Origin: Candidatus Schekmanbacteria bacterium
GTDB lineage: Bacteria > CSSED10-310 > JACPHN01
DNA: 12,462 nt
Assembly (NCBI GenBank): GCA_016188575.1
Contig: JACPHN010000147.1
Coordinates: 1-12,462 of the forward strand
Reading direction: 5' to 3'
Shown here: piece by piece, positions 1-5,105 of the stretch
Position numbering within the stretch: the first letter of the stretch is position 1
Layout of the letters: every line of letters begins with the position of its first letter
Position numbers and translations under genes: made by a program
The notes under the pieces: generated by a model
The model's input: the letters and a program-made list of their open reading frames with translations, nothing else
What the model was told of the DNA's origin: nothing
Databases searched by the model: none

Positions 1-3000
1 CGACTCCAGGTAGCGCGCCCGCAGGTAGGTCAGGTCGAGCTGCTTGTCGTACTGGCCGCCGATGAAGCGCCGGTCGTTTTCGACCTCGGCGCTGTCGAGC
101 TGCCGCTCGCCCCCGTCGAACACCGCCCCCCACGGCATGTACTCCACCGGCTGCGAGCTTCGGGAAGCCGAGCCCGAGAAGTCCGCCGGCCACACCACCG
201 CGCCGTGCTGGTCGCTCATCGCGACCACGCTGCCGAGGTGATCGAGATGGTAGAAGTAGCGTTTGGCGGGATAGGGGCCGGTGCCGAAGGCGTCGGCCGT
301 GCCGAGCTGGACCATGGCCGCCAGCGCCAGCCCCGCTCCCGCGGCCAAAAGCCGCCGCTGCCGCCACCACAGCGCGCACGTCAGAAGCCCCAGCGCGCCC
401 GCCAGTGCCGTGCGGCTCCACACCGGCACCGTGCTCCAGCCTGGCGCCAGGTCCATGCGGCCGATCAAGGTGTCCTCCGAATATGCATAGATCCTGCGCA
501 GCTCGCCCTCACCGTCGATCTCCGCGAGCGGATTACCCGATTCGTCATACAGATAGTACTGCTCCGACCCGACCGTCGAGCGCCAGCAGCGCTGGCCGGC
601 GGCGTCGTAGTCGAAGGACACCGCCGCTCCCTCACCGCCCTGTGCCGAGACCAGCAGGCCATCATACCCATAGTCCAGGTGCTTGGTCTCGCCCGTGTCC
701 GCCGTCGGGTACGCGGTCAACCAGCCGTCGAGATGATACGCGTAACCCGCGGCGGTCACGCGGTTGCCGCGGTAGGTCCAGCTCGCGCTCGGCTGCCCCG
801 GCACGGTCGAGGTGACGCTTTCAACGCTGCCGTGAGGCTCGTGCGCGAAGCTCAGCGTGCCGTGCTCGGCGTAATCGGCGCTCGCCACGCGGCCTTTGGC
901 GTCGTAGCTGAGGTCGTCCCAGATCGTGCCGCCGCCGTAGAAGATGCGCGCGGGGTTGCCGCGGCGGTCGTATTGGTACAGGCGATCGAAAATCCCTCCG
1001 GTCGTCTTGATCCGGCCAGGCCGGTTTGGATCTGCCCCGGAAGGCTCGACGGTGGTCGTGACGCCGTTGGCGAATCTCACCGCCTTCAGCCCGCCGGCGG
1101 CGTCGTAGTCCAGCGCGGTAGCGAAATCCCCGAGCGCGCTGATGCGGTTGTCCTGGCCGCGCGTGTAGCGCAGCTCGTAGTCGTTGGGATACGTCACGCC
1201 CACGAGGTTGCCGTTGGCGTCGTACCGATACTGGAGCTCGTAGCTGCCCACCGGATAGGTGGTTTTGACCCTCCGCACCCTGCCGAGCGCATCGTATTCG
1301 AGATAGTCCGTCGAGCCGCCGTTGAACCGTGCCGCCGTCAGGTAGCCGAGGCGCGTCTGCTGCGTGGTTCGCTCGTCGTAGGTAAAGGAGGTCGTGCGGC
1401 CCACGTCCGAGAAGAACCGCGACGTCACCCGATTGTTGTCGTCGAATTGCTGCTCCACGTAGGCACCGCCGCGGCGCGTGCGGCGGCGCTGGTTACCGTT
1501 TTCGTCGTACTGGTAGTCCACCCAGCCGGTCTCGGGGTGCAGCTCGCGCGTCAGCCGCGAGGCGCGGTCGTAGACGAGCTCGCGGTCGTTGTCGCCACCC
1601 GGCGCGTCGATTTTGCTCAGGCGGGAGAGCGCGTCATAAGCGTAGCGGAAGGCGGTGCCGGTCTCGTCCACGAGCTCCACGACATTGCCCGAGGGGTCGG
1701 TAACCGTTTCGCGCGTCCGCCCCAGCGGATCGGTTTGCCGCACCGCGTTGCCGTCGTAGCGGTAGGTCCAGGTGCCGAAGGGATCGGTGCGCTCGACCTC
1801 CCGGCCCAGCGCGTCGTAGGCATGGCTCGTTGCCGCGCACGGCGAGCAGGTCTGGGCGCTCGTCGGCGCGCTCGCGAAGGTCCGGCGGCCGACCGCGTCG
1901 TAGCGATAGTGGATGTAGTCGAAAGCTCCCGGTCCAGCGGCGGTGCGCACCCGCACCACCCGCCCCAGGTCGTCCAGCGCTTCGACCGTTTCCGCGTCGC
2001 CGCGCCTGCGCACCACTTGCTCACCGGCCTCGTACTCGACCTCGAGCGGGTTATCGCCTGGAAAGCCGGTCCGCGTGCGGCGTCCGAGCGCGTCGTAGGC
2101 GAAGGTCGTCGTGTTGCCGTTCGCATCGGTCTCGCTCCGCGCGAGCCCGGTGCTCGCGTCGATGGCGCGCGTGAACGACTGCCAGCCGCGCGGCGTGCGC
2201 ACGGATTCCAGCGTGCCGTGGTCGGTCTCTGCCTCCCATTGCTTGCCGCGCGGGTCGATCACTCGCTCGAGGTTGCCGTCGCCGTCGTAGGAGCGCCGCG
2301 TCACCAGGCGCAGGCCCGAGGGATCGACCACTGTCTCAGTCACCCGGCCGAAGTCGCTCGCGGAGACCGAGGTGCCGTAGGTGTGGCGGGTTTCGCTCAG
2401 GAGCGTGCCTGCAGGCTCGTCGTAGATTCGTTCCGCGCTCACCAGCGCCACCAGGTTCGCCGCCGCGAGGCTCTGGCTGCCCGTCCAGGCGCGCTCGTAT
2501 TCCGCGCGCCGCAAGAGCGCGGTGGTGTCCCAGCCCGTTTGCTGCACCTCGCCGGGGTTGCCGTAGGCGTCGTAGCCCAGGTAGTAGGTGCGCGCGAGAT
2601 CGACGGCGGTCGTCCCCGGCCGGTGCAGCTCGACGCGCGTCTCGGCGGGCAACGCCACGCGGGCGAGCTGCGCATCCTCGAAGCCCGGCCAGGTGATCTC
2701 CTCCATGCCCAGGACGGGGTCGCTCGAGAGGACGCGGAAGTCGTAGTCCGTTTCCTCCCGCCGCGCGAGATTTGCATACCCGCCGGTGTCCGTGCCGTCG
2801 TAATACTCCGTGCGGAAGCTCAGCCCGATGTTGTACGGCATCACCAGGCTGGTCGAACCGAGCCCGTGAAAGAAGCTGCGGGTCACGTTGCCCAGCGGAT
2901 CGATGGTGCGCACGTAGGTCTCGCCCGAGCTCGGGTAGTCGTAGGTCCACCGCGCCGTCCCGAAGTCGCCGGCATGTTGGCGGCTCACCAGCACCCGCGA

Positions 3001-4379
3001 CGGAACGCGCGTCGAGCGCACTCCGTCGCTGACGTAGCGGTAGCGCGTGTCGTGCTCGTAGGTGGCGAGGCCGCCGTAGGGATTGCGCAGCTCGCGCAGC
3101 TCCGGAAAGTGGCCCGTGGCGTAGGTATAGGAGACGCCGGGACCGGCGGGGGGCGTGACCGCGGACAGCACCGCAAGCTGGCCGGTGTCCTTCACCTCGT
3201 AGCGGATGCTCGCCGGCGCACCGTCAAAGGCGGTGAACGAGATTTGCTCCAGGCGCTCGTGTGCTGGCGCCGCCGTGCTAAACGTCACCGTCCGGCCGTA
3301 GGTATCGCGAATGGACTTCAGGTTGCGTTTGCCCGCGAGCTCCTCGTCGTACTCGACCGCAATGGCATTGGCGCCGCTGGCGCTGCTGATCCGCGTAAGC
3401 GCCAGGAAGGGGAAACCCTCTTCATCGGCGGCGAGGTGGCCGAATTCGAAAACCGTGCCGTCGCGGCCCCGCAGCGTCGCGACGCCGCCGGCGGCATCAT
3501 ACTCGTAGCGGCGAAAGCTCTTGGTGAAGTCGACGCCGGCGACGACGTCCGGGAATACCCGCTCGCGGGAACCGTCGGGCGTGACCACCGTCGGGTTCTT
3601 GTCGTCGGCGTAATCCGCGTGGTAGACGCGCCCCAGGTGCAGGGTCCAGCCCAGACCGAGCCACGAGCCCCCGATCGGTTCCGAGGCGTCGCCGTTCCAG
3701 CGTACGACCTTGCTGTTGTAGGAGCGGGTAATGACCAGGTCGAGGCCGCCCTTCCCCGGCAGGCGCAGGTCCGTGTAGGTGAGGAGCAGGTTGCCGTTGA
3801 ACAGGTTGACGGTTTCCTCGCCGCTCCCGGGTTGGTAGCCGCCACCGTCCTTGACGCCGGCCTGATCGAAGAACCAGTCCTGCTGAAAGGCCGCGAGGTC
3901 CTCGACGAGGTAGAGCACCTCGCAGTAGATCGCGATGCGCGCCGCCTGGTCCGTGAGCCAGTCATTCGCGACGCCGCCGGCGAAGTCCCCGTCAACCTTG
4001 GGAGCGACGTCCTGGCGCAGCTTGTTTTCGGCCGCGCCGAATGCTCCCTGAGCGATCTGGGTCCGGGCGACCTCGATCTTCTTCGCGAGCACGCACTGCC
4101 GCAGCGAGGTCGGCGGATCCGAGACATCCTGGCACCCGGCCGACAGCGCGGCCCTCCGCGCCGTGGCACCGAAGGCCCCGGCGGGCAATCCCTCGATGTA
4201 GGTAATAATGCGGCTGGCGTGTGATACGAGGTGGTCTACAGGCTCAAGAGCATGTGGCGCGGGGGGGGGGGGGGGAAAAGCAGAACCAGCAGCCGCGCGG
4301 CACGAGGCAAGACAGCGCCATGCAGGGAAATGTTGGAAGCTCCTGGCAGGCCGTGCACGCCACTCTGTCTTCTCATCAT
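1..4379 (-). CDS. RHS/YD-repeat exported protein, partial, interrupted by a poly-C frameshift
   Basis: This is a giant RHS-family protein; its C-terminus lies beyond the left edge. The minus frame with codons on plus positions 1-3, 4-6 and so on is open from 4395 to position 1. It has an N-terminal segment, then VNLFNGNLLLTYTDLRLPG (about residues 188-206), typical of the start of RHS shells. Many YD repeats follow, such as YDALGRRTRTGFPG, YDALGREVERTDPFG and YDANGNLVGVTYP. The RHS core comes last: HLDHLGSVVAMSD, then RFIGGQYDKQLDLTYLRARYLE at 4-69. No ATG, GTG or TTG exists in this frame between 4395 and the poly-C run; the first candidates after it are weak (TTG near 4190, GTG near 4091). 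The start at 4379 is chosen for its GGAGG site and upstream promoter, but it is out of frame by one base at the C run. RHS shells usually encapsulate a C-terminal toxin, which is not visible here. Family assignment is secure; the functional state is uncertain. Confidence 0.9.
4261..4275 (-). repeat. Homopolymer of 15 C (coding strand) inside the RHS gene start
   Basis: There are fifteen uninterrupted G on the plus strand. On the coding strand the run follows CTGCTTTT and precedes GCGCCACATGC. With 15 C the ATG at 4379 gives a 47-residue peptide ending at the TAG at 4236-4238. With 16 or 13 C the same ATG reads through a proline stretch into the open RHS frame. Runs of this length are prone to slippage during replication and are also prone to sequencing error. 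Confidence 0.9.
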
Positions 4380-4383
4380 GGTT

Positions 4384-4388
4384 CCTCC
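4384..4388 (-). promoter_or_regulatory. Ribosome-binding site fixing the RHS start
   Basis: The coding strand reads TGGAGGAACCATGATG. GGAGG lies four bases before the ATG at 4379. This is the best ribosome-binding site in the region, and it marks a start whose frame matches the RHS frame only if the poly-C run changes length by +1 or -2. Confidence 0.7.
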
Positions 4389-4394
4389 ATCGCC

Positions 4395-4720
4395 CTTACG
4401 TCTGAGGTCATCCGAACACGACACCGACCATTCGCCTCTCCCCGGCGCGAAATGTATCCCCGGCCGGCAAGAGATCGCATACCAGGGGCAGTCGCACGTG
4501 TCAAGGCCTGTCCCTGGGCGACGACTCCCCACCAAAACCCCTTTCATGGGTAGGCATTTCGAGCGACGGCTATCTCACCAGACCTGCCAAGCGCAGAACA
4601 CCAGATACCTACGCGCTTTCTCCGAGCGCCATGGCCCGCGGGTGTCTGCCGTAGCCATGGCCGTAGCCGTAGCCCTCGCCTTCGCCATCATCTGCGTACC
4701 GCGCACCCCTTGCTTGGAGC
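4395..4720. other. Intergenic region between the RHS start and the IS5 remnant
   Basis: Apart from the candidate promoter at 4476-4504, no gene is evident. Around 4640-4690 a GCC-phased stretch (GCCATG, GCCGTA twice, GCCCTC, GCCTTC, GCCATC) reads on the minus strand as GEGEGYGYGHGYG. No start or homologous context supports translation, and the stretch may be debris of a lost gene. Confidence 0.4.
4476..4504 (-). promoter_or_regulatory. Candidate sigma70 promoter for the RHS gene
   Basis: On the minus strand there is a perfect -35 box TTGACA (4499-4504), a 17-base spacer, and TATGCG (4476-4481) preceded by TGG, giving an extended -10 form (TGnTAT). Transcription would start near 4469, leaving a leader of about 90 bases before the ATG at 4379. 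Found by eye only. The -10 hexamer matches the consensus at only three positions, offset by the extended -10. Confidence 0.5.
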
Positions 4721-5105
4721 CTATCCCAATAGGCCACTCGACCGCCAGGTGATGATCGCCAAGGCCAGGTGGAGCTCGGCCAGATAATTCTGCGGTTTCT
4801 TTGCCCAGCGCACAGGATCCCACGAAAGCGGTTCATCCAACTGTGCAGACGTTCCACTACCCAACGTCGCGCCCTGAAGCCAGCCTCATTCTTGATGGCC
4901 TTGGCCTCCTCCCCCTGGCCGCGAATATGAGCGGTGAATTGGAATTCTATCAACAGCTCCCGCACTTCCTTGTAGTCGTACCCTTATGTCCAGGCACATT
5001 CCCTGAGGGCCATCGGCCTTGGGGACGGGTCTGTCGATGGGAATGCTCTCCACGGTCTCCCGTGCCCTGTTGGTCAGCTCAGCCACGAGCACTCGCGCCG
5101 GCATC
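4721..5105 (-). pseudogene. IS5-family transposase remnant (C-terminal part, frameshifted)
   Basis: This is the remains of a DDE transposase of the IS5 family (IS427-like group), split over three frames on the minus strand. The first piece contains LVAELTNRARETVESIPI and ends in DGPQGMCLD near 4990. After one frameshift it continues as GYDYKEVRELLIEFQFTAHI, then ARRWVVERLHSWMNRFRGIL, the region carrying the catalytic glutamate of the family. A second frameshift near 4805 leads to RWAKKPQNYLAELHLALAII and then WRSSGLLG with a TAG at 4721-4723. The N-terminal half, with its aspartates, is missing. The stop lies in CCTATCCCAATAGG, which resembles terminal sequence of this group. It lies just downstream of the DUF3108 gene. 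Inactive; the group name is less certain than the family. Confidence 0.8.

Follow-up and report, generated by a model that had tools for sequence, protein, structure and literature searches.

How could a giant RHS protein be expressed from a gene whose long reading frame has no start codon upstream of a run of 15 cytosines, and whose promoter-like and ribosome-binding sequences precede a short open reading frame (ORF) in a different frame? This question is raised by contig JACPHN010000147.1 of a Candidatus Schekmanbacteria bacterium, analysed here over its entire 12,462 bp (the window; C1 in our numbering of the contigs). The host genome is a draft of 9.20 Mb (275 contigs, 94% complete, approximately 65% GC). 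Comparison of the locus with other sequences of this genome makes it very probable that the C15 tract is a phase-variation (contingency) switch, serving one of a repertoire of exported giant proteins.

Structure of the split RHS gene

The split gene is composed of the following elements, read from the nucleotide sequence except where a Pfam match is given:

4499-4504, minus strand: -35-like hexamer TTGACA, found 120-125 nucleotides (nt) before the ATG in all five paralogous copies
4476-4481, minus strand: -10-like hexamer TATGCG, separated by a 17-nt spacer; TATGC is kept in all five copies, and its function is putative
4384-4388, minus strand: Shine-Dalgarno-like GGAGG, conserved among the paralogues
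4236-4379, minus strand: leader ORF of 47 residues (ATG at 4379-4377, stop TAG at 4238-4236)
4261-4275, minus strand: C15 homopolymer, the proposed slippage switch; the homologous tracts of four paralogues have 9-10 C
1-4260, minus strand: RHS reading frame after the tract, truncated by the contig end (Pfam RHS_repeat, 9e-35; DUF6531, 3e-10)
3562-3816, minus strand: DUF6531 domain (Pfam, residues 125-209)
181-258, minus strand: candidate RHS core motif PF03527 (26.2 bits, slightly under the cut-off of 27.9)
310-417, minus strand: predicted transmembrane hairpin within the RHS shell, immediately preceding the RHS core

The promoter-like pair, the GGAGG, the ATG, the C15 tract and the leader stop at 4236 agree base for base with an initial annotation of this DNA. 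The leader has a charged start and a signal-peptide-like hydrophobic stretch (AARLLVLLF), followed by poly-proline and the TAG. The RHS frame is open from position 4395, just after a TAA, to the contig end (1465 codons) and, as the same annotation had claimed, it contains no ATG, GTG or TTG before the C run; the first such codon is TTG 4188, downstream of the tract. The presence of RHS repeats and DUF6531 places the encoded protein among the RHS/YD-repeat proteins; the region where a polymorphic RHS toxin would have its variable C-terminal toxin domain, followed by an immunity gene, falls beyond the contig. When the window was shuffled 200 times with its dinucleotides preserved, a C15 tract never arose. 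We propose that the window copy, as assembled, is OFF.

The promoter is a consensus-like putative site, conserved in all five copies; a promoter scan of the window did not report the TTGACA/TATGCG pair, because its second hexamer is poor. In most of the paralogues an inverted repeat (GGTATG..CATACC), degenerate in the window copy (4464-4483), overlaps the -10 region and is a possible candidate operator.

One homologous site in all three reading frames

When the RHS N terminus and the leader DNA were used as queries against the genome, four further copies of the locus came up, on contigs C38, C46, C106 and C173 (family A). All five copies are 80-97% identical over the promoter, leader and RHS start, and each contains (i) a promoter-like pair, (ii) a Shine-Dalgarno-like site, (iii) 34 leader codons, (iv) a poly-C tract and (v) an RHS start. 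Their tracts and frame offsets (0, in frame) are as follows:

contig C1 (window): C15, offset 2
contig C38: C9, with an extra ACCCG before the tract, offset 0
contig C46: C10, offset 2
contig C106: C9, offset 1
contig C173: C9, offset 1

One homologous site is thus represented in all three reading frames. None of the five copies has a stop or an indel in the 34 codons preceding the tract, and the hydrophobic stretch with which these codons end reads ALLLALLF or AARLLVLLF. Between the ATG and the RHS start, the aligned copies have indels in the tract only; others are found in the 5′ untranslated region. The window leader differs from the other copies at about 22% of positions, yet carries no indel outside the tract. 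The position of the leader stop varies among the copies.

The copy on contig C38, the sole member of the family that is naturally in frame, supports the earlier proposal that the two frames belong together, and displays the likely product, comprising a signal-peptide-like leader, prolines and the RHS N terminus.

The RHS frame after the tract is kept under purifying selection. The window copy and the C38 copy, compared over 177 RHS codons, show a nonsynonymous divergence (dN) of 0.056 and a synonymous divergence (dS) of 0.212 (dN/dS 0.26). The 23 codons that separate the tract from TTG 4188 contain 8 synonymous but only 3 nonsynonymous differences between the window copy and that of C106 (p ~0.001), and the ribosome must therefore be in the RHS frame before it reaches this TTG.

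The nearest comparison genomes are related to the host at the phylum level only. In the scanned contigs of these relatives only two RHS loci were found, both distant, including one in a Zodletone metagenome-assembled genome (G001). The G001 homologue has no run of at least 7 nt near its start, and its N terminus is fixed and signal-peptide-like.

Further families with poly-G and poly-C tracts

The window locus belongs to one of at least five gene families of this design in the genome. Because an automatic frame-call test was too strict for short signal-peptide flanks (24 of 36 long tracts were unscorable), the frames of family members were read by homology.

Family B contains seven copies, with tracts of G25, G17, G10, G13, G10, G10 and G11 and offsets, in the same order, of 1, 2, 1, 0, 2, 1 and 1, so that all three frames are again present. 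The tract lies at the end of a membrane hairpin, a position equivalent to the poly-C site of family A. The in-frame copy (contig C151) codes for NHL repeats and a teneurin TTR domain in the part that precedes the contig end. A homologue without a tract, in frame and complete at 2105 residues (C154:14000-24000), has in a single frame a signal-peptide-like start, hairpin, TTR, FN-plug, NHL and YD shell. Based on the domains of these two proteins, family B is RHS/teneurin-like, and the halves flanking its tract belong together. A hairpin with a basic loop, resembling that at 310-417 of the window, bears the poly-G in family B and in a gene of contig C31.

In the remaining three families, which are smaller and encode secreted proteins, namely C with three copies, D with two and E with two (at offsets 2 and 1), the tract is located inside or beside the signal peptide; all copies of families C and D are out of frame. 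In a singleton on contig C238 a signal peptide is followed by an out-of-frame C10. The secreted proteins encoded on contigs C144, C260, C231 and C96, which have an SFESGGLD-type region at the start, Thr-Pro-rich linkers and a tract beside the signal peptide, matched no Pfam family; one of them (C144b) has an apparent second frame break farther along. Long runs inside genes of contigs C31, C78 and C87 are in frame. Another 15-nt C/G run is located in an intergenic repeat of contig C112 (L010:12988-13002), where no gene frame spanning it was found; this run and several C10 tracts in intergenic repeats were left out of the families.

Long C/G runs are over-represented in this genome. Compared with its own run-length decay, there are approximately 36 runs of at least 10 nt (about 10 expected), eight of at least 12 nt (0.5 expected) and, by extrapolation of the decay, four of at least 15 nt in 9.2 Mb (0.007 expected). 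Counts of C12 in other genomes were dropped as a comparison, since poly-C at contig ends inflates some of them. Seventeen of the 19 family members are out of frame, compared with 1 of 156 C/G runs of 5-9 nt in coding sequences with both flanks scorable, the frame being kept in the other 155.

Proposed mechanism of switching

We propose that the promoter and ribosome-binding site would drive a leader encoding a Sec-type signal peptide. The poly-C run would follow the hydrophobic core of this peptide and precede the mature RHS protein, and its number of C residues would be altered by slipped-strand mispairing at replication. In the ON state translation would run through into the RHS shell and the protein would be exported; in the OFF state it would stop within a few to a dozen codons. 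Applied to the RHS family (five copies), the poly-G teneurin-like family (seven copies) and the three secreted families, the same process may yield a random subset of products in each cell.

This view is consistent with three properties of the locus: the C15 tract is a hypermutable-length repeat in the 5′ part of a reading frame, above the threshold of 8 (PMC6321876); the repeat number differs among homologous copies and shifts the frame (families A and B); and the gene following the repeat is maintained by selection. We further consider it probable, with less assurance, that the genome as a whole carries a repertoire of exported RHS/teneurin-like giants, switched at homopolymers in signal peptides or hairpins, and that clonal cells of this uncultivated, presumably free-living environmental bacterium would differ in the recognition or antagonism molecules that they display.

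Several observations weigh against a switch. The evidence for it is a comparison of paralogues within one genome; of the switch proposed in the initial annotation, the part that is supported is the length-changing site, present in all three frames among paralogues, a mixture of lengths at one locus being a prediction. The copy on contig C38 is interrupted by a repeated element after 177 RHS codons, and no complete ON copy of family A has been assembled. All three copies of family C have G10 and an identical offset. The proportion of family members out of frame is slightly above the two thirds expected at random (p 0.05). The leader codons show no clear constraint at the protein level (dN/dS ~0.7-1.1 relative to the window copy). 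The genes mutS and mutL are intact, and the count of 15 C comes from a draft assembly and is possibly wrong.

Alternative explanations

It is unlikely that the homopolymers were miscounted during sequencing or assembly and that the true genes are all in frame. The draft state of the assembly (275 contigs) is in favor of this explanation, as is the artefactual-looking poly-C at the extreme contig ends of assemblies G004 and G006, and runs of 15 C are prone to sequencing error. However, runs of 9-10 nt are usually read well, and the C9-C10 copies already occupy different frames; the shorter runs of 5-9 nt are practically unshifted, and long tracts at homologous positions are themselves no error. 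The simple sequence error named as an alternative in the initial annotation is thus improbable in general. The window tract may be off by one C through such an error, which leaves the family-based conclusion unaffected.

Next in order, and with a chance that we rate as small, comes programmed ribosomal frameshifting, or transcriptional slippage on the run, which would produce a fixed fraction of full-length protein with no change in the DNA. It would account for the predominance of out-of-frame copies and for the single length and frame of family C, where this mechanism is possible. It is less likely than switching, given that families A, B and E each show more than one offset at a homologous site, which does not fit a mechanism of fixed direction; moreover, the C38 and C151 copies are directly in frame.

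We consider it very improbable that the out-of-frame copies are decaying pseudogenes and the tract a mutational scar. The broken copy on contig C38 and the insertion-sequence remnants adjoining the C1, C46 and C173 copies would agree with decay, but the window RHS frame is open over its 1465 codons with the dN/dS given above for the testable part, and decay would not be expected to leave tracts at matching positions in diverged paralogues from several families.

The least probable explanation is another start of the RHS protein, at TTG 4188 (which is conserved, with GAGGGA close upstream) or by re-initiation past the leader stop, the leader being a separate peptide, since it is opposed by the excess of synonymous changes upstream of this codon, by the loss of the export signal, whereas the N terminus of the G001 homologue is signal-peptide-like, and by the differing positions of the leader stop.

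Relation to known phase-variable systems

The class of mechanism to which phase variation of the window gene would belong is well known. Poly-G tracts of at least 8 nt switch gene expression in C. jejuni, and in Campylobacter poly-G/C tracts of 7-8 nt or more occur genome-wide in reading frames, with mixed ON/OFF states (PMC6321876). The tract families described here resemble this phasome in being a genome-wide set of poly-G/C tracts in reading frames. They differ from it in tract length (up to 25 nt) and in tract position, with a concentration at the signal peptide or membrane hairpin of giant proteins, while Campylobacter switches other types of genes. Campylobacter is a low-GC, host-associated genus.

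In PMC5953494 (citing Jonsson 1991), the Neisseria genes pilC1 and pilC2 are described as carrying poly-C/G tracts (9-20 nt) within the frame that encodes a secreted surface factor, with demonstrated switching. The likeness to the RHS locus extends from the poly-C/G in the frame of a secreted factor to the existence of paralogues, two of which switch in pilC. The pilC proteins belong to an unrelated family, in a pathogen of another phylum, and their switching was demonstrated, whereas here it is proposed from sequence. The pilC tract reportedly lies in the signal-peptide region.

In their domains, the proteins described here are like RHS/YD-repeat and bacterial teneurin-like proteins (RHS_repeat and DUF6531 in the window; TTR, NHL and YD shell in family B and in the C154 homologue). 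They differ in the homopolymer switch, which we did not find described for those proteins. In agreement with the initial annotation, which knew of no established phase-variable RHS system, a literature search found no homopolymer-switched RHS, YD-repeat, teneurin or polymorphic-toxin gene; it covered few subscription papers and is a lead rather than proof. A paper on repeats in Burkholderia mallei mentions Rhs in expression tables only. What appears to be new is the use of the mechanism on RHS/teneurin-like giants, in several gene families of a single genome.

Most known homopolymer contingency loci are those of host-adapted pathogens, and RHS/teneurin-like proteins have been connected, in other systems, with contact-dependent antagonism and cell recognition. 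Here, the same device would act on RHS/teneurin-like giants in a genome of 9.2 Mb, from a lineage about which little is known. If this is correct, a clonal population would be a mosaic in which the giant proteins on the surface differ from cell to cell, and phase variation serving bacterial competition or phage avoidance, beyond escape from host immunity, becomes testable. Automated annotation will label such genes as broken.

Genomic context

The genes on the minus strand of the window are, in order:

minus strand: PrkA kinase, DUF444 protein, SpoVR, DUF3108 protein, transposase remnant, RHS gene

The remnant, of a DDE-type transposase (4609-4965, minus strand), lies immediately upstream of the RHS promoter. 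On contigs C46 and C173, remnants of IS110-like transposases (identified by inspection) are located directly upstream of the corresponding promoter. The repeated element that interrupts the C38 copy (L144:1-88) is present in approximately 24 near-complete copies (33 matches overall) and is probably the end of an insertion sequence. RHS repeats are encoded on about twenty more contigs of this genome.
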